Assembly (NCBI RefSeq): GCF_020171315.1
Contig: NZ_JAIUZP010000002.1
Span: 1 to 64,000 of the forward strand
From: Pseudooceanicola nanhaiensis
GTDB taxonomy: Bacteria > Pseudomonadota > Alphaproteobacteria > Rhodobacterales > Rhodobacteraceae
Length of the DNA stretch: 64,000 bases
Reading direction: 5' to 3'
Under the pieces are notes generated by a model. The model saw nothing but the letters and a program-made list of their open reading frames with translations. It ran no database searches and was not told where the DNA came from. This document shows, in pieces, positions 22,526 to 52,459 of this stretch (positions are counted from its first letter, which is position 1; each line of letters starts with the position of its first letter). The translations under genes and the position numbers were made by a program.

Positions 22526-23416
22526 ATGGCCGACCAGACCGCCGCCTCCATCGAGGACGCAAGCCCCGCGGAGATCCGCGAAAGCTATCTTGCCCAGACC
22601 CGTCGCAAACGCCTCTACAGCGGGATGCTGCTGGCGGTCTTCGTGGCGCTGATGGCCGGGGGCTTCATCACCGCCGACAGCCGCAACGCCGGTGGCTTCT
22701 GGGACGGCCTGCACCGCATCTTCGACTTCCCCGCCGGGGTCATCGCCGAGACGGTCGAGAAGATCGACCGGATGCCCGCGAACCTCGTGAAATTCTTCCC
22801 CGCGCTGATGGAGACGATCAACATCGCCGCCGCCGCCACCCTGCTGGGCGCGCTTGGCGGGATCGTCCTGTCGATGCTGGCGACCCGCGGCATGGCCCGC
22901 TGGCCACGCCTGATCCCGGTGTTCCGCCGGATCATGGACGTGATGCGCGCCGTGCCCGAGATCGTCATCGCGCTGGTGCTGATCTTCGTTCTCGGCGGCG
23001 GGCCGGTGCCGGCGATGATCGCCATTGCCTTCCACACGGTCGGTGCCCTCGGCAAGCTCTTCTCCGAGGTGAACGAGAACGCCTCGCTCAAGCCCGTCGA
23101 GGGGCTGGCCTCGGTGGGTGCCAACTGGTCGCAGCGGATGCTGCTCGGCGTCGTGCCGCAGGTGGCGCCGAACTACCTCAGCTATGCGCTGCTGCGCTTC
23201 GAGATCAACATCCGCGCCTCCGCCATCCTCGGCTTCGTGGGCGCGGGCGGCATCGGCTACGAGCTCAAGAACGCCATCGGCTGGGGCATCGGGCGCTATG
23301 ACGAGGCGGCGGCGATCTTCTTGCTGCTGTTCCTGACCATCGTCGTGGTGGACCAGTTCTCGTCCTATGCCCGCGACCTGCTGACCCACGGCCGCAAGAA
23401 GGAGATGCTGGCATGA
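22526..23416 (+). CDS. phnE: Phosphonate/phosphate ABC permease (first PhnE)
   Basis: A 296-residue inner-membrane permease with about six helices, the first at residues ~35-53. The EAA-like loop AFHTVGALGKLFSEVNENASLKPVEGL and the GFVGAGGIGYELKNAIG segment are typical of PhnE. AGGGAT precedes the ATG at 22526; the longer open frame upstream overlaps phnD and is a shadow. Its stop overlaps the start of the second permease by 4 bases. Confidence 0.93.
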   Translation: MADQTAASIEDASPAEIRESYLAQTRRKRLYSGMLLAVFVALMAGGFITADSRNAGGFWDGLHRIFDFPAGVIAETVEKIDRMPANLVKFFPALMETINIAAAATLLGALGGIVLSMLATRGMARWPRLIPVFRRIMDVMRAVPEIVIALVLIFVLGGGPVPAMIAIAFHTVGALGKLFSEVNENASLKPVEGLASVGANWSQRMLLGVVPQVAPNYLSYALLRFEINIRASAILGFVGAGGIGYELKNAIGWGIGRYDEAAAIFLLLFLTIVVVDQFSSYARDLLTHGRKKEMLA

Positions 23417-24726
23417 CCCTCGCTGCCGATATGCCGATGGACGGGCTGAAGACCCGCGCCGAGGCGCTGTTCCGCCGCAAGCGCATGGTGGCCATCGCGC
23501 TGCCGCTGGTGCTGCTGGGCTATCTTGTCTACGCGCTCTTCGCCTTCAACGTGCCTGCGCTGCTGCAGGGGGCCAGCCTCGAGAACGGGGCCACGCTGAT
23601 CCGCGACAGCTACAGCTACAAGACCCACGTCACCCGCGACAACCGGTCGGGCGAGGTGAGCTTTGCCATCGAGGGCGAGCGCAAGGGCGAATACGCCCCG
23701 GGCACCCACCCGGACTGGGTGACGATCGAAGGCGATGACACGATCACCGACCTCGGCGGCGGGCACCTTGTGCATTACACGGCCGATGGTGTGTCTTACG
23801 AGATCCCCGGCTATGGCACGGTCAGCGCGCAGCCCGGCAATGGCGGCGTGAACGCGACCTTCCCGGAAGGCGCGCTGCCGGAGTGGATCAACGCCTCGAA
23901 GAACCGGGTGACGATCACCACCGATGCGGGCCGCGTGACGATCACCCGCAACCGGACCGAGGTCTTCCGCTACTCGCTGGGGTGGGAGCTCTTCTTCTTC
24001 ACCCTCGACAGTCCCTACCACGGGATGGGGCCGGGCGAGCTGCTGTCCCATGCACTTTCGGGCGAGGCGGGGGCGATCTGGGATGACTTCTGGAACAATG
24101 CCATGTGGCGCCACGGGGACGTGGCCTGGGCGCTGGTGGAAACCGTGCTGATGGCCTTCCTCGGCACTTTCGGGGCGGCCATCGTGGCGCTGCCGCTGGC
24201 CTTCCTCGCGGCGCGCAACTTCGCGCCCCTGATGGCGGTGCGCTTCACCTTCCGGCGGATCTTCGACTTCCTGCGCGGCACCGATGCGCTGATCTGGACC
24301 ATCGTGCTGTCGCGGGCCTTCGGGCCGGGGCCGATGACCGGGGCGTTGGCGATCCTGCTGACCGACACCGGCAGTTTCGGCAAGATGTTTTCGGAGGCGC
24401 TGGAGAACGTGGACGGAAAGCAGATCGAGGGCGTGCAGTCGACCGGGGCCAAGCCGCTGCTGCGCTACCGCTTCGGGGTGATCCCGCAGGTGACGCCGGT
24501 GCTGCTGAGCCAGGTGCTCTATTTCTTCGAGAGCAACACCCGGTCGGCCACGATCATCGGCGCGATCACCGGCGGCGGCATCGGGCTGATGCTGACCCAG
24601 GCGATGATCACCCAGAAGGACTGGGAGGAGGTGACCTATTACATCATCCTCGTGATCCTGCTGGTCTTCGTGATGGACTGGTTCTCGGGCTGGCTGCGGC
24701 GCAAGCTGATCGGGGGCGAGCCCTGA
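23413..24726 (+). CDS. phnE: Phosphonate/phosphate ABC permease (second PhnE, enlarged)
   Basis: A 437-residue PhnE paralog. After the first helix (~28-48) it carries a ~150-residue soluble, beta-rich insert (~60-210, e.g. GEVSFAIEGERKGEY and VTITTDAGRVTITRN) that should face the periplasm. The permease core follows (~235-430), with the EAA loop LTDTGSFGKMFSEALENVDGKQIEGV and GAITGGGIGLML. The 4-base overlap with the first permease indicates coupling and a heterodimeric channel. The insert may touch PhnD or the outer envelope; that is inference. Confidence 0.9.
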   Translation: MTLAADMPMDGLKTRAEALFRRKRMVAIALPLVLLGYLVYALFAFNVPALLQGASLENGATLIRDSYSYKTHVTRDNRSGEVSFAIEGERKGEYAPGTHPDWVTIEGDDTITDLGGGHLVHYTADGVSYEIPGYGTVSAQPGNGGVNATFPEGALPEWINASKNRVTITTDAGRVTITRNRTEVFRYSLGWELFFFTLDSPYHGMGPGELLSHALSGEAGAIWDDFWNNAMWRHGDVAWALVETVLMAFLGTFGAAIVALPLAFLAARNFAPLMAVRFTFRRIFDFLRGTDALIWTIVLSRAFGPGPMTGALAILLTDTGSFGKMFSEALENVDGKQIEGVQSTGAKPLLRYRFGVIPQVTPVLLSQVLYFFESNTRSATIIGAITGGGIGLMLTQAMITQKDWEEVTYYIILVILLVFVMDWFSGWLRRKLIGGEP

Positions 24727-24763: not shown

Positions 24764-24799
24764 ACGGGCCGGAAAATGGAGATTTTCCGGCCCGTTTTC
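24764..24799 (+). terminator. Terminator of the phnCDEE operon
   Basis: A 14-bp perfect stem runs from 24764-24777 to 24782-24795 with a GGAG loop, ending in TTTTCTG. It lies 38 bases after the last stop. Confidence 0.85.
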
Positions 24800-24867
24800 T
24801 GTGCAGAAAACGGGCAGGGCGGTGAGGGCGGGGGCCCGTCGAGGCGCGCGGCCTTCGCGGGGAGGCT

Positions 24868-24986
24868 GGAAGAATTTTCGAAAATTCTTCCCAAAATTCT
24901 TCGAAGAATTTTGGAGGGGGCTGTCTGCCCCCTCTTGCAGGCTGCGCCTGCAATTCACCCCCGAGGATATTTTCGGCAACGAAAAT
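24868..24986. repeat. Paired palindrome element, copy 1, with three extra stem-loops
   Basis: Unit A (24868-24891) is a 24-bp perfect palindrome with core AAGAATTTTCGAAAATTCTT. It runs into unit B (24891-24914), another 24-bp palindrome with core AAAATTCTTCGAAGAATTTT. Three further stem-loops follow: GAGGGGGC/GCCCCCTC (24914-24934), TTGCAGGC/GCCTGCAA (24935-24953) and ATTTTCG-GCAA-CGAAAAT (24969-24986). It lies between convergent phnE and the RND gene. A and B recur at 34688 and 51027 in the opposite order. Confidence 0.9.
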
Positions 24987-25016
24987 GAAAAGGGGCGCGC
25001 CGCGGGTCTTGGTGTG

Positions 25017-28000
25017 TCACTCGGCGGCGCGCAGGCCGGGCTTGTTGGCGGGGAGGACCTCGATCTGGTGGTCGGGGCCGGCGTCCCAGAGGATTTCCGG
25101 GGCCTTCAGGCGGCGGGCGGCGCGGCGCAGGGTCCAGTCGCGGGCGGCCTGGCTGGTGCGGCCGAAGGAGAGCCGCGCAAGCAGGGTGGCCAGCAGGTTC
25201 ACGTAGGTCGAGGCCCAGACCCGCAGCGCCAGCATCGCGGGCGTGAAGACGAGGGTGAGCACCGTCGCGATGCCGAGGCCGAAGACCACCGCCGTGGCAA
25301 GCTGCTTCCACCAGAGCGCGGTGGGGCTGTCGATGGAATAGCCGCCGCCGAAGAAATCGAGCGAGAGGCCGAACATCATAGGGGCAAGGCCGGCCATGGT
25401 GGTGATCGTGGTCAGCAGCACCGGGCGGATGCGGTCCTCTGCCGTGCGGATGATCGCCTCGATCCTGGGCATGTACTGCGAGTATTCCTGGTAGGTGTCG
25501 ATCAGCACGATGTTGTTGTTCACCACGATGCCCGCCAGGGCCACGATCCCGGTGCCGGTCATGATGATCGAGAAGGCCTGATCCATCACCAGCATGCCGA
25601 TCAGCACGCCCGTGGTGGAGAGCACCACGGCGAGGAGCACCAGCACCGAGTTGTAGAAGGAGTTGAACTGGGCCAGCAGGATGATGAACATCAGCGCGAG
25701 TGCCGCGGAGAAGGCGGACATGAGGAACTGCTGGCTTTCCGCCTGGTCCTCCTGGTCGCCGGTCCAGACCGTTTCGATCCCGGGGGGGAGATCGGCCTCG
25801 GTGTCGAGCCAGTGCTGGAGCGTCTCGATCCGCTCGGTCGCGGTGATCGGCAGGGGTTTGCCCTCCGGCCCCTCGGTGGTGAGGCCGGGCAGCACTGCGG
25901 CCTTCACGTCGAAGTAGCGGGTCTGGTCGACGCGCTTGATCTGGGCCAGTTTCTCCACCGGCTTGCGGGTGATGAAGTTGGAGAGCGGCACGAGCCCGTC
26001 GGAGGTGCGGACCTTGAGGTTGTCGAGGGTGGAGAGCACCCGGTCCTCGGCGGGCAGGCGGACGCGGATGTCGATCTCCTCGTCGGAGCTGTCCACCGAC
26101 ATCGTGTCGAGCAGGATGCCCCTGGTGACGAGCTGCACCATGGCGCCCACGGTGGCCACGTCGGCGCCGTAGCGCCCGGCCTTCTCCACGTCCACGTCGA
26201 TCTGCCAGTCGATGCCGGGCAGGGGCAGGCTGTCTTCCACGAGGTCGAGGCCCTCGGTCGCGTCGAATTTCGCGCGCACCTTCTCGGTGGCGGCGACGAG
26301 GGTGTCCCAGTCATCGCCGCGCACCTGCAGGTGCACCGGCTTGGCCGAAGCGGGGCCCATGGAGGCCGAGAGGATCTCGATCTTGATGCCGGGCACCCCG
26401 GCGAGGGCGCTATTCAGGTCGGCGATGACCACGTCGCCGTCGAGTTCCGGCAGGCCCTTACGGTCTTCCCAGGGCACGATTTCCAACTGGATCTGCCCGA
26501 TGGTGTCGAGCGGCGCCTCGGCCCCGCCGGTGTTGGTGTTGAGCCCGCCGTCGCCCGCGAAGGAGAAGGCGTTGAGCACGCCGGGGTGTTGCAGGACGAT
26601 GTCCTCCACCGCGTGCATCAGCGCATCCTTCTGGTCGAGGCTGAGGTTGCCGCGGGCGCGCACATAGACGATGGCCTGTTCCGGCTCGCTCTCGGTGAAG
26701 AATTCGACGCCCTTGTTGTTCTGGCCGAAGGTGACGAAGGTCGCCATCACGAAGGCGATCACCGTGCCGATGGTGACCAGCGGCATCACCGGGTTGCCGG
26801 TCAGCAGCTTGATGAACCACCCAAACGGCGTGCGGCGGCGGCCGACGCGAACCTTGCCGCCCCGGCGCAGGGGCAGCTTGGCGGCGGTGACGGTGATCGA
26901 GGCCGCCACGGCGGCAAGGCAGAAGAGGATCAGGCCGGGCAGGGGGGCGGCCATGCCGGGTAGCAGGGCGCTGCCGGTGAGATAGGCGGGGTTCACCGCC
27001 CACATGGCGCCCACGAACATCGCGTACATCGCCACTGGCACGAGGGCCGCGCGGGCCCACCAGGGCAGGGCGGATGTCAGACGCGCGGCGGAGCGGTCGA
27101 AGGTGCGGGCGATGCGGCCCGTGACGCCGCCCATGACCGGCAGGTAGATCAGCGCCACCACCAGCGAGGCGGAGAGCACGAAGATCAGCGTCACCGGCAG
27201 CATCCCCATGAACTCGCCCGGGACGCCGGGCCAGAACAGCATCGGCAGGAAGGCGCAGAGCGTCGTGGCGGTGGAGGAGATCACCGGCCAGAACATCCGC
27301 TGTGCTGCCTCCACGTAGGCGTGCATCGGGCCGGTGCCCTCGCTGATCCGCCGGTCGGCGTATTCGACGATGACGATGGCGCCGTCGACCAGCATCCCCA
27401 CGGCGAGGATCAGGCCGAACATGACGATGTTGGAGATCGTGATTCCCATGGCGGCCAGCAGCACGAAGCAGAGCAGGAAGGAGGTGGGAATGGCAAAGCC
27501 CACCAGCAGCGCGGGCCGGGGGCCGAGGGCGGCGAGGATGACGATCATGACGAGCGCGATGGCGGTCAGGACCGAGCCTTCGAGCTGCTGCACCATGGAT
27601 TCCACCACGCGGCTCTGATCGTTCGAGGTGCCCATGTGGATCGCGGATTGCAGCCCCTCGGGCCAGTCTGCGCGGGCCTCGGCCACGACGTCCTTTACCG
27701 CGGCCACGGTGTCGATCAGGTTGAAGCCCTTGCGCTTGACCACCTGCAGCGCGACCGTGGTCTGGCCGTTGAAGCGGGCGGTGCCGGTGCGGTCCTCGAA
27801 GGTGAGGCGGATGTCGGCGAGATCGCCGAGGGTCACAACGCGGTCGCCGTTGATCTTGACCGGCAGGGCATAGATGTCGCGCGGTTCCTGGAAGGAGCCG
27901 GGGATCTTCACCGCGAAGGTGCCGCCCGCGCTGTCGACCTCGCCCGCGGCGATCAGCTGGTTGTTGTTGGTCACCACGTTGATCAACTCGGCCGCGGTGA

Positions 28001-28589
28001 CGTTGTAGGATTCCAGCCGCAGCGGGTCGATCACCACCTCGACCATCTCGTCGCGCTGCCCGGCGATGCCGGCCTCCAGCACCGAGTCGAGCCCCTCGAT
28101 CCGGTCCTGCAGGTCCTGGGCCACGCGGTTCATCGTGCGCTCGGGCACGTCGCCAGTCAGGTCCACGATGAGGATCGGGAATTCGGAGAAGTTGATCTCG
28201 CTGATCGTGTATTTGTCGGCGCCTTCGGGGAACTTGCTTTCCGCCGTCTGCATGGCGTCGCGCACGTCGGCCATGGTCCTGGTCTTGTCCCAGCCGAACT
28301 CGAACTCCAGCGCGACCCCGGCATAGCCTTCGGCCGCGGTGGCGCTCATCTTGTCGAGCCCGTCGAGATCGGACAGCTCCGTCTCCATGGGCTTGACCAA
28401 CAGCCGCTCGCTGTCGGCGGCGGAGATGCCGGGGAACTGGACCGAGACGTAGAGCGCGGGGATCTCGATGTCGGGCTCGCCCTCCTTGGGGAGGTTGGCA
28501 TAGGTGAAGCCGCCCGCGATCAGCGACAGCGCGATGAAGGCGAGGATCATGCGGGCGCGGTTGGCCGCCGCCGCGACGATCCCGTTCAC
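25017..28589 (-). CDS. RND-family multidrug efflux pump, inner-membrane component
   Basis: A 1190-residue HAE1-type RND transporter. It has the usual two-fold layout: TM1 at ~14-32, a porter domain, TM2-6 (~335-500), then the second half with TM8-12 near the C-terminus (e.g. AALALMFIILLAQFNSFYNS). It is longer than the usual ~1040 residues because of a ~100-residue hydrophobic and basic insert around 500-600, between the two halves. In TM4 the usual Asp pair is VDGAIVIVE, and in TM10 the Lys position reads VVNNNIVLID, so the proton-relay residues differ from AcrB. It starts inside the end of the adaptor gene (4-base overlap). No outer-membrane channel gene is nearby. Confidence 0.92.
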   Translation of the reverse strand: MNGIVAAAANRARMILAFIALSLIAGGFTYANLPKEGEPDIEIPALYVSVQFPGISAADSERLLVKPMETELSDLDGLDKMSATAAEGYAGVALEFEFGWDKTRTMADVRDAMQTAESKFPEGADKYTISEINFSEFPILIVDLTGDVPERTMNRVAQDLQDRIEGLDSVLEAGIAGQRDEMVEVVIDPLRLESYNVTAAELINVVTNNNQLIAAGEVDSAGGTFAVKIPGSFQEPRDIYALPVKINGDRVVTLGDLADIRLTFEDRTGTARFNGQTTVALQVVKRKGFNLIDTVAAVKDVVAEARADWPEGLQSAIHMGTSNDQSRVVESMVQQLEGSVLTAIALVMIVILAALGPRPALLVGFAIPTSFLLCFVLLAAMGITISNIVMFGLILAVGMLVDGAIVIVEYADRRISEGTGPMHAYVEAAQRMFWPVISSTATTLCAFLPMLFWPGVPGEFMGMLPVTLIFVLSASLVVALIYLPVMGGVTGRIARTFDRSAARLTSALPWWARAALVPVAMYAMFVGAMWAVNPAYLTGSALLPGMAAPLPGLILFCLAAVAASITVTAAKLPLRRGGKVRVGRRRTPFGWFIKLLTGNPVMPLVTIGTVIAFVMATFVTFGQNNKGVEFFTESEPEQAIVYVRARGNLSLDQKDALMHAVEDIVLQHPGVLNAFSFAGDGGLNTNTGGAEAPLDTIGQIQLEIVPWEDRKGLPELDGDVVIADLNSALAGVPGIKIEILSASMGPASAKPVHLQVRGDDWDTLVAATEKVRAKFDATEGLDLVEDSLPLPGIDWQIDVDVEKAGRYGADVATVGAMVQLVTRGILLDTMSVDSSDEEIDIRVRLPAEDRVLSTLDNLKVRTSDGLVPLSNFITRKPVEKLAQIKRVDQTRYFDVKAAVLPGLTTEGPEGKPLPITATERIETLQHWLDTEADLPPGIETVWTGDQEDQAESQQFLMSAFSAALALMFIILLAQFNSFYNSVLVLLAVVLSTTGVLIGMLVMDQAFSIIMTGTGIVALAGIVVNNNIVLIDTYQEYSQYMPRIEAIIRTAEDRIRPVLLTTITTMAGLAPMMFGLSLDFFGGGYSIDSPTALWWKQLATAVVFGLGIATVLTLVFTPAMLALRVWASTYVNLLATLLARLSFGRTSQAARDWTLRRAARRLKAPEILWDAGPDHQIEVLPANKPGLRAAE

Positions 28590-34582: not shown

Positions 34583-34687
34583 GTGCGTGAAACGTTCCAA
34601 ACGCCCAAGTGGTTCACTCTCAAACGGAATACCTGCCATGAGACAGGCGGATGCCTTTCGGTTTCCGCCCCGGTATCCCGGTTGTGC

Positions 34688-34734
34688 GGAAAATTCTTCG
34701 AAGAATTTTCCCAAGAATTTTCGAAAATTCTTGG
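34688..34734. repeat. Paired palindrome element, copy 2
   Basis: Unit B (34688-34711, core AAAATTCTTCGAAGAATTTT) is followed by unit A (34711-34734, core AAGAATTTTCGAAAATTCTT). Each is a perfect 24-bp palindrome and they share one base. Order is B-A on the plus strand, the reverse of copy 1. It lies between serS and the TspO-like gene. Confidence 0.92.
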
Positions 34735-34803
34735 TCGCGGGGGGCGAGGGTGGCGCAGCCCGCTGGCCGAAGACAGGGCCGCGACGGAGCCGGGCCCCAA
34801 AGG

Positions 34804-34859: not shown

Positions 34860-36152
34860 TCAGACCAGCACGCCCTCGGCGCTCAGCGTGGTCTTGCCGC
34901 GCAGGTAGGGGTGCAGCACCGCAGGCAGCACGACCGAGCCGTCTTCCTGCTGGCCGTTCTCCAGCACCGCGATCAGCGCGCGGCCCACGGCGAGGCCCGA
35001 GCCGTTCAGCGTGTGCACGAACTCCGGCTTGCCACCCTCGGCCGGCTTGAAGCGGGCGTTCATGCGGCGGGCCTGGAAATCCCCGCAGACCGAGACCGAG
35101 GAGATCTCGCGGTAGGTGTCCTGACCGGGCAGCCAGACCTCGATGTCGTGGGTCTTGCGCGCACCGAAGCCCATGTCGCCGGTGCAGAGCACCACGGTGC
35201 GATAGGGCAGTTCCAGCTTCTCGAGGATCGCCTCGGCGCATTTGGTCATGCGCTCGTGCTCGTCCAGCGAGCTGTCCGGATGGGTGATCGAGACCATCTC
35301 GACCTTCTCGAACTGGTGCTGGCGCAGCATGCCCGCGGTGTCGCGGCCCGCGCTGCCCGCTTCCGAGCGGAAGCACTGGGTGTGGGCCACGTAGCGCCGG
35401 GGCAGGGTGCCTTCCTCGACCGTCTCGCCGTGGACGATGTTGGTCAGCGTGACCTCTGCCGTCGGCACCAGCCACCAGCCCTCGCGGGTCTGATAGCTGT
35501 CCTCGCCGAACTTCGGCAGCTGGCCGGTGCCCAGCATCATCTCGTCGCGCACCAGAACCGGGGTCCAGGTCTCGCTCAGGCCATGGTCCTCGACGTGGGT
35601 GTCGATCATGAACTGCGCAAGCGCCCGGTGAATACGGGCGACGCCCGCGCTCAGCACGACGAAACGCGCGCCCGAAAGCTTGGCCGCGGTCTCAAAGTCC
35701 ATGCCCGGCTTCACGCCGGCCAGCTCGTAGTGCTCCTTCGGGGTGAAGGAGAAGTTGCGCGGGCTGCCCCAGCGGCGGATCTCGACGTTGTCGTCCTCGT
35801 CCGCGCCCTGCGGCACGTCGGCGAAGGGCGCATTTGGGATGCCCATGAGCACGTCCGTCAGCTTGGCGTCGAGCTCCTTGGCCTCGGCGTTCATCGCCGC
35901 GACCTCGGCCTTCTTGTCGGCCACGAGGGCGCGCAGGCGCTCGAACTCGGCCTCGTCGCCGCGGCCCTTGGCGGCGCCGACTTCCTTGGAGGCCTTGTTC
36001 TGCTCGGCCTGCGCGGATTCGGCGGCGTGGATCTTGGCCCGGCGCTCATCGTCGAGCGAGAGGATCGACGACGACAGAGGCGCGGCGCCCCGCAGGGCCA
36101 GGGCGGCATCAAAAGCGGTTGGATTTTCGCGGATCGCGCGGATGTCGTGCAT
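34860..36152 (-). CDS. serS: Seryl-tRNA synthetase
   Basis: A 430-residue class II aminoacyl-tRNA synthetase. The N-terminal coiled-coil arm that grips tRNA-Ser is at ~35-100 (rich in Glu/Lys/Ala). The catalytic core has [13 protein letters not shown], motif 2 [25 protein letters not shown] and motif 3 [17 protein letters not shown]. The ATG at 36152 follows GGGAGA; a Met five codons up lacks a site. It is divergent from yajC across 330 bp. Confidence 0.97.
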
Positions 36153-36482
36153 GATCGTCTCCCTCATGAAGAATCGTGAGCGCCTTATGCGGGATTTTCG
36201 CGCGGGGGGAAACCGGGCGAGGGACGCAGGCCGGGGCGGTGGTGTGAGGGGGGCACAGGCCGGGCCGGTGGGGCCTGCGGCATCGGTGCGCCGGGGGCGC
36301 GCGCGGGCGGAGGGCGGTGGCCTGCGGGGCGTTCACGGGAAGGTGCGCGCACCCCGGCAGGAGCGCCGGGGCAGCGGGGCGTTTCGCGCCTTGCAAATAA
36401 CGCGGCTGCCCCATAGGTTCCCGGCGACTTGGACGCCGGGCCTTTGCCCTTCAACGACAAACAAAGAACAAGGACAATTCCC
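36153..36482. promoter_or_regulatory. 330-bp divergent region between serS and yajC
   Basis: No gene seen. A candidate yajC-secDF promoter is TTGCAA - 17 bases - TAGGTT near 36392-36420, about 65 bases before yajC. The rest is GC-rich without clear structure. Confidence 0.35.
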
Positions 36483-51026: not shown

Positions 51027-51072
51027 CAAAATTCTTCGAAGAATTTTGCCAAGAATTTTCGAAAATTCTTGG
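51027..51072. repeat. Paired palindrome element, copy 3
   Basis: Unit B (51027-51048, 22 bp, core AAAATTCTTCGAAGAATTTT) is followed by unit A (51049-51072, 24 bp, core AAGAATTTTCGAAAATTCTT). Same B-A order as copy 2. It is between purB and the small Cys-protein gene, 25 bases past the purB terminator. Confidence 0.92.
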
Positions 51073-51098: not shown

Positions 51099-51129
51099 AA
51101 AAAGGGGCGGCTGCCTGCGCAACCGCCCC
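51099..51129 (-). terminator. purB terminator
   Basis: On the minus strand a 7-bp stem GGGGCGG/CCGCCCC with a 12-base loop is followed by five Ts. Confidence 0.8.
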
Positions 51130-51151
51130 CGATCCTGCGATATCAGCCGGA

Positions 51152-52459
<1,308 letters not shown>

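Follow-up and report, generated by a model that had tools for sequence, protein, structure and literature searches.

Tandem hairpins behind genes of Rhodobacteraceae: a probable protection of upstream mRNA, with REP-like dispersal in one lineage

The window considered here, i.e. the whole 64-kb stretch of DNA analysed at the start of contig NZ_JAIUZP010000002.1 of Pseudooceanicola nanhaiensis, holds three pairs of adjoining palindromes, A and B, located exactly where the original prediction had placed them. With X standing for AAGAATTTT, palindrome B is X'-CG-X and palindrome A is X-CG-X', so that X-NNN-X orients every element and the strand reading AAGAATTTT-NNN-AAGAATTTT is taken as the element strand. 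Copy 1 (24868-24914, minus strand) is made of A at 24868-24891 (GG-A-CC) and B at 24891-24914 (CC-B-GG), one base being common to both, and occupies a convergent gap between a gene for a binding-protein-dependent transport permease on its left (23413-24726, plus strand; PF00528) and a gene for an AcrB-type RND transporter on its right (25017-28589, minus strand; PF00873). Copy 2 (34688-34734, plus strand; B at 34688-34711, A at 34711-34734) and copy 3 (51027-51072, plus strand; B at 51027-51048, A at 51049-51072) are each found in a gap flanked by two minus-strand genes, the seryl-tRNA synthetase gene (34860-36167, minus strand; PF02403 and PF00587) having its 3' end towards copy 2 and an adenylosuccinate-lyase type gene (51152-52459, minus strand; PF00206 and PF10397) towards copy 3. 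Between copy 3 and the latter gene, about 30 nt from the copy, lies a terminator-like hairpin with a T tail (51103-51130, minus strand), identified as a consensus match only. The proposal that copies 2 and 3 sit beyond housekeeping terminators agrees with this hairpin for copy 3; for copy 2 it relies on a terminator seen by eye, which is absent from the scan list. The B-type core occurs three times exactly in the window and six times at up to two mismatches, compared to a mean of 0.01 at the latter threshold over 100 shuffles. Searching Rfam with the whole window returned a tRNA as the sole match, and nothing in the region around copy 2 (34600-34800) scored above the gathering score, the best hit being RF01055 with 18 bits where 36 are needed.

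Besides, a second pair of tandem hairpins, GC-capped and given without strand, stands about 50 nt from copy 1 (24769-24815), with D CCGGAAAATGGAGATTTTCCGG followed by C GCCCGTTTTCTGTGCAGAAAACGGGC. Such C/D tandem hairpins accompany many of the AB copies of the genome at about 70 nt and have the AB architecture with other stems, either CCGGANTTTTCGAAAANTCCGG / CCGGAAAATTCGAATTTTCCGG or CCGTTTTCTTCGAAGAAAACGG with CCGGAAAATTCGAATTTTCCGG. On its other side, copy 1 is abutted by a GC-rich repeat, GGGGGCTGTCTGCCCCC...TTGCAGGCTGCGCCTGCAA...CCCCCGAGGATATTT, at about 24915-24989, relatives of which abut several other copies.

In the source genome (4.82 Mb in 30 contigs), 70 B-type and 61 A-type cores are found at up to three mismatches, and none with the reversed control. 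The joined form AAGAATTTTNNNAAGAATTTT occurs at 67 places at up to one mismatch and at 11 further separate places at two mismatches, i.e. about 78 pairs in total; the 72 pairs that were read comprise all of the former and five of the latter, six 2-mismatch places and two hits of the covariance model (C13:28729 and C1:195232) standing outside this set. As the pairing of A with B and the 3-nt spacing are kept genome-wide, the palindromes are neither confined to the window nor paired there only; of note, all copies read have 3 nt between the cores of the two hairpins, a spacing that the search pattern itself demanded. The view of one composite unit in two orientations is likewise upheld, with 40 of the 72 pairs on the plus strand and 32 on the minus strand. 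Regarding the fixed perfect palindromes initially described, the description suits the type I copies, where the loop is CG, but not the type II copies (14 of 72, counted manually), which have longer loops such as GAAAC or CCTT and often a AAAAGTCTT/AAGACTTTT stem. With loops ranging from 2 to 5 nt across the copies, the units are hairpins rather than fixed TTCGAA-centred palindromes. The spacer and the closing bases also vary among copies with preservation of the pairing; among 42 own copies, for example, 16 have CCC as inner spacer and 7 have GCC. Type I pairs with spacer CCC, GCC, GGC or GGG are free of stop codons in all six frames, and those with GAG, ACC or GAC contain stops.

Each palindrome is one hairpin, and two hairpins abutting at 0-1 nt make up one element, with stems of 8-12 bp, A/T-tract bases at the foot and short variable loops. 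The alignment used for the analysis of covariation comprises 70 of the 72 copies, without the internally rearranged L090 and L100, and follows a structure derived from the very copies scored; over 21 pairs, 97.0% of the cells are paired and double-sided changes are present at nine pairs, with a covariation score of 0.160 vs. 0.044 upon shuffling (none of 500 shuffles reaching 0.160) and at most 0.052 in slid controls. Hairpin 1, for instance, is closed by G-C in 34 of these aligned copies, by C-G in 28 and by U-A in two, the closing bases being unpaired in six. Two abutting stem-loops were obtained in all ten sequences that were folded, eight of which are hslV-hslU junctions, with stems of 8-12 bp, loops of 3-4 nt, energies from -15 to -22.5 kcal/mol and z-scores from -3.1 to -6.9. 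Compensatory changes preserving the stems, as expected for a structured RNA, fit RNA or folded DNA alike, and the counts of sense-strand G.U and A.C, which bear on this distinction, are nearly equal, with 3 vs. 2 in 42 tandem copies and 13 vs. 11 in 49 convergent copies. Wider alignments did not show the long outer GC-rich stem around both hairpins that a few flanks had suggested.

The placement of the element was set against genes called by a purpose-written codon-based caller. None of the 72 own copies is inside a called gene, and 39 are in convergent, 30 in tandem and only three in divergent gaps; with the gaps of at least 60 nt in the window as a baseline (7 convergent, 20 co-directional and 10 divergent; n = 37), and taking 10/37 as the rule, the probability of so few divergent copies is about 5e-7. 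The tandem copies are closer to the upstream stop than to the downstream start in 23 of 30 cases, and they stand in either orientation to their genes, 14 of the 30 sharing the gene strand (manual count). In other genera, 29 best loci were fetched, two being dropped because they were cut with the match off the assumed place and one because it lay at a contig edge; the 26 readable loci are tandem in 17 cases, convergent in nine and divergent in none, with a median distance of 21 nt to the upstream stop in the tandem and of 8 nt to the gene ends in the convergent arrangement. In several of these genera, convergent gaps of 51-66 nt are wholly taken up by the element (L317, L329, L336 and L341). 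At one locus (L265:4527-4625, minus strand), the copy lies within an open frame of 32 codons, which runs from an ATGA at the stop of the upstream gene towards the downstream gene, and similar frames were seen by eye at L260, L268, L277 and L281.

The search of related Rhodobacteraceae that had been advised revealed the same architecture with other stems in further genera of the family. The B core at up to one mismatch is present in 23 of 295 family genomes, source genome included, and the GTDB collection has 28 stretches with the exact pair (any spacer). Maritimibacter alkaliphilus accounts for 11 of them, and the others are labelled as Rhodobacteraceae, e.g. Frigidibacter, Thetidibacter and Psychromarinibacter, with the single exception of one labelled Exiguobacterium. 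In this last record (L273; CP059262.1), named Exiguobacterium profundum SSD5, the exact pair is at an operon junction of Rhodobacteraceae type, and the MAG is probably mislabelled. When the covariance model was used (82.5 bits for copy 3, which was among the training copies of the model), 60 of 198 Rhodobacteraceae genomes matched at E <= 0.001, at most 28 candidates per genome being scored, both strands counted and weak matches lost under stricter filters, and 3 of 289 genomes of a class-wide sample at E <= 0.0001, all of them Rhodobacteraceae, with no family assigned to the unlisted rows of the sample. Among the genomes searched, the element is confined to the Rhodobacteraceae, and the copies initially described are the most uniform subfamily of a broader element. 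With 60 of 198 family genomes and 3 of 22 genus genomes carrying it, its distribution is patchy, which makes an essential role less likely.

The exact-pair loci read are mostly co-directional gaps, and the same junctions recur in different genomes, namely those between sugar ABC permease and ATPase, coaBC and dut, a 4Fe-4S protein and a CMD-family gene, formate-dehydrogenase-like subunits, hslV and hslU, as well as liv genes, one representative of each being identified by Pfam and the others by eye from flank likeness. At hslV-hslU, 31 junctions were read, i.e. the best 30 of 129 matching genomes together with a Thetidibacter record selected for carrying the element; ten have the double hairpin, one has a single hairpin, 15 have none and five contain 0.7-1.1 kb of other DNA, hslV and hslU being still adjacent in the 15 junctions devoid of it. 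The stop codon of hslV is within the first arm in all ten double-hairpin junctions. As these ten were selected for two hairpins, pairedness is given; their base-anchored double-sided changes affect five of eight positions in hairpin 1 and seven of eight in hairpin 2, with one row (L300) placed in register by hand, the unaltered script giving eight of eight. That different letters pair at one and the same place is the best indication that what has been kept is the fold and not the sequence.

The reading we favour, with a probability of roughly 55%, is that of an element of the Rhodobacteraceae made of two hairpins in tandem, located at cistron boundaries and at the 3' ends of transcripts, which probably protects the upstream mRNA and has been dispersed in a REP-like manner in one lineage. 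The unit would act folded, most likely in the transcript, where a double hairpin just behind the stop codon would stand in the way of 3'-to-5' exonucleases and might also mark a site of processing, with the upstream cistron being stabilised relative to the downstream one; between convergent genes, one element could act for both mRNAs, since either strand gives the same fold. This putative decay barrier is proposed by analogy with the intercistronic stem-loop of the puf operon of Rhodobacter capsulatus and with differential decay of the malEF type, both cited in PMC5927463. The puf stem-loop, also from this bacterial family, is likewise a hairpin that follows an upstream cistron within an operon and has a proposed function as decay barrier; unlike this locus-specific structure, the element is a double module that recurs at dozens of sites. 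In the lineage of the source genome and M. alkaliphilus, the unit would have multiplied to dozens in the manner of a dispersed REP/RIME-like repeat, and adjacent palindromic modules with it. Several points sit uneasily with the decay-barrier model, among them the lack of a fixed orientation to the genes and the 15 hslV-hslU junctions without a double hairpin. Copy 3, beyond a canonical terminator-like hairpin, could be transcribed by read-through only, which counts against a role in the transcript, and the stems are without a U tail, so that termination itself is left unexplained.

It is possible, if rather unlikely, that the element is instead a non-autonomous mobile repeat (REP-, RIME- or MITE-like) without host function, whose hairpins would be recognised by a transposase on single-stranded DNA and whose placement at 3' ends would merely reflect tolerated insertion. 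The copy numbers are suggestive in this respect: joined pairs at up to one mismatch are dispersed at 67 places in the source genome and 55 in its sister species, M. alkaliphilus SY-2-18 (G297), the closest relative met, with two more in a third genome among the 22 of the genus (G313), where the covariance model has 14 matches (both strands counted) and where the stems, in most of the eight loci read, are AAAANNCTT/AAGNNTTTT with covarying NN. The remaining 19 genus genomes have no model match at E <= 0.01. At one site (L077), the junction is readable in 20 of the 22 genomes, with the element in two, nothing in 17 and a two-hairpin unit with other stems in G313; in other words, 17 of the 18 other genus genomes readable there are without the element. 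At another (L081), matched in 22 genomes, only G000, G297 and G309 span the junction. Regarding a MITE, the one presence/absence site, judged by eye, gave no unambiguous target-site duplication. Some AB copies adjoin the GC-rich repeat, and the association with other repeats forms mosaics of about 200 bp, again as a mobile repeat might. The RIME and ABC intergenic mosaic elements of rhizobia are likewise intergenic, mosaic, palindrome-based repeats of alphaproteobacteria. At least two copies lie at or near a rearrangement with respect to the sister species (clear at L034 and L086); the alignment stops at or close to the element at L088 and L095, one flank is without a match or was not fetched at L064, L075 and L082, and the flanks of L055 fall on two fetched stretches, some 2.8 kb from each other. 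Separately, the sister-species copy L154 is devoid of the stretch found in L073 between the first and last AAAATTCTT, a loss expected from slippage between direct repeats.

Comparison with the sister species tells against a recent mobility of the element. Out of the 72 own copies, 49 are shared (at most 4 mismatches over the 18-base core, some being shortened, e.g. L057 and L089), two are remnant or diverged copies by eye although flagged absent by the script (L073 and L091), eight, those named above from L034 to L055, have flanks that do not co-map and 13, including all three copies of the window, are not covered. No empty site was found among the 51 comparable sites, which means that no recent movement is seen. 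The inner spacer specific to each copy is common to the orthologues in 36 of 42 cases, where 8.6 were expected from shuffling, indicating vertical descent without homogenisation of the copies; concerted evolution as the source of their uniformity is ruled out on this ground. The stems are also better conserved than their flanks: over 37 shared sites with type I loops, matched in length, substitutions reach 4.2% in the stems, 17.0% in the intergenic flank (within 60 nt) and 5.7% in the adjacent coding sequence, or 6.2%, 20.9% and 5.7%, respectively, when deletions are counted. This excess of flank over stem is about 4-fold, or about 2-fold if the picking of own copies by likeness to the consensus erased all own-branch change, such picking being able to explain up to about half of the gap; slower mutation of AT-rich DNA in a GC-rich genome may be another source of stem conservation. 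In favour of the mobile repeat, the stem changes between the two sister species are mostly uncompensated, with 27 one-sided breaks and 10 changes to G.U for a single compensated double change; compensation is visible over longer times, not between these two species. At hslV-hslU, on the contrary, the placement is kept across genera with compensated stems, which tells against a repeat devoid of host function.

As for the transposase that such a repeat might depend on, REP and BIME associated with RAYT (GTAG superfamily) are often-paired extragenic palindromes at convergent or unidirectional gene ends, for which roles in RNA stability and termination have been proposed (PMC3733652). The element likewise consists of multi-copy extragenic hairpins with a preference for convergent and unidirectional gaps, but differs in that its units abut and are mostly perfect AT-rich hairpins. 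The REP/BIME-like nature put forward in the original prediction consequently stands as far as a multi-copy, extragenic, two-unit palindrome at gene 3' ends is concerned, but fails for the transposase and the tag. The suggested check for a Y1 (RAYT) transposase (PF01797) gave none in the 22 genus genomes, source included, with the control positive in 5 of 14 named genomes, and no unpaired GTAG was found beside the hairpin on either side of the 72 copies; a RAYT-driven REP is rejected on these two counts. There is also a likeness with the CGTC-tagged REPs of alphaproteobacteria, including Rickettsia RPE-4/-6, that is 8-9 bp stems starting with A-T, 4-5 nt loops, paired units, alternative complementary stem letters, the lack of a dedicated transposase and the same gene contexts (PMC3733652), and the element, with folded stems of 8-12 bp and loops of 3-4 nt, has the stem, loop and paired units of this type. 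The tag itself (CGTC, TGTC or CCTC within 8 nt of the core) appears on the left in three and on the right in three of 72 copies, never on both sides, for a background of 165 in 2016 8-mers, and a CCA arises in the element only where the inner spacer runs into the next stem. Six names of Rhodobacteraceae searched in the main text of PMC3733652, figures aside, do not occur there, and no description of the element was found in the literature searched, subscription journals being outside this scope. The element is a variant of the extragenic palindromic elements for which no RAYT, tag or Rfam entry was found.

That the element is a bidirectional intrinsic terminator appears improbable. The short convergent gaps (51-66 nt) that contain nothing but the element would suit such a function, as would the four A and four T at the feet of the stems, reminiscent of the 4A/4T stem-loops, which are single, proposed bidirectional terminators of low-GC firmicutes (PMC1590033). 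Both kinds are AU-rich, start and end in A and T tracts and are typical of the 3' ends of genes, but the 4A/4T stem-loops are described as single and from low-GC bacteria, when the element is paired and belongs to a GC-rich family. Against this, the GC-rich stem and U run of an intrinsic terminator were both missing, the stems being AT-rich in a GC-rich genome and followed mainly by G/C with no U run behind either of them; a canonical terminator-like hairpin coexists with copy 3, and many copies are between co-directional genes of likely operons. Less probable still is the binding of a dimeric protein, either nucleoid-associated or akin to a repressor, to the DNA duplex at four 9-bp half-sites AAGAATTTT in alternating orientation, which the high uniformity of the type I copies, the constant 3-nt core spacer (required by the pattern) and the half-site spacing of 11-12-11 bp would favour, but from which the 2-5 nt loops shifting this spacing, the half-site letters changing jointly on both sides and the near absence from divergent gaps, where promoters lie, all detract. 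The protein-bound repeat initially envisaged is weakened as a fixed duplex dyad by these loops and compensated stems; a protein binding the folded strand would still fit.

Returning to the tandem-hairpin element at transcript 3' ends, a shape of two hairpins kept despite sequence drift suggests an undescribed structural signal in gene transcripts. A more ambitious version, to be taken as speculative and unlikely as it stands, would see in it an undescribed, family-wide class of cis-elements, whose abutting stem-loops would be read as one shape by a dedicated Rhodobacteraceae factor, i.e. an RNA-binding protein or a nuclease, setting cistron boundaries and convergent 3' ends; the sequence would be free to change as long as the fold is kept, and multiplication in a lineage would change the stability of mRNAs from dozens of genes at one stroke. 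The usual verdict on extragenic palindromic repeats is that they are either selfish DNA or RNA signals. Here, one architecture can be traced from single, position-conserved and compensated operon copies, at hslV-hslU and, by flank likeness, at coaBC-dut, formate-dehydrogenase-like, liv and sugar transporter genes, to a burst of dozens in one lineage of the Rhodobacteraceae, so that the choice between parasite and signal can be put to a direct test.
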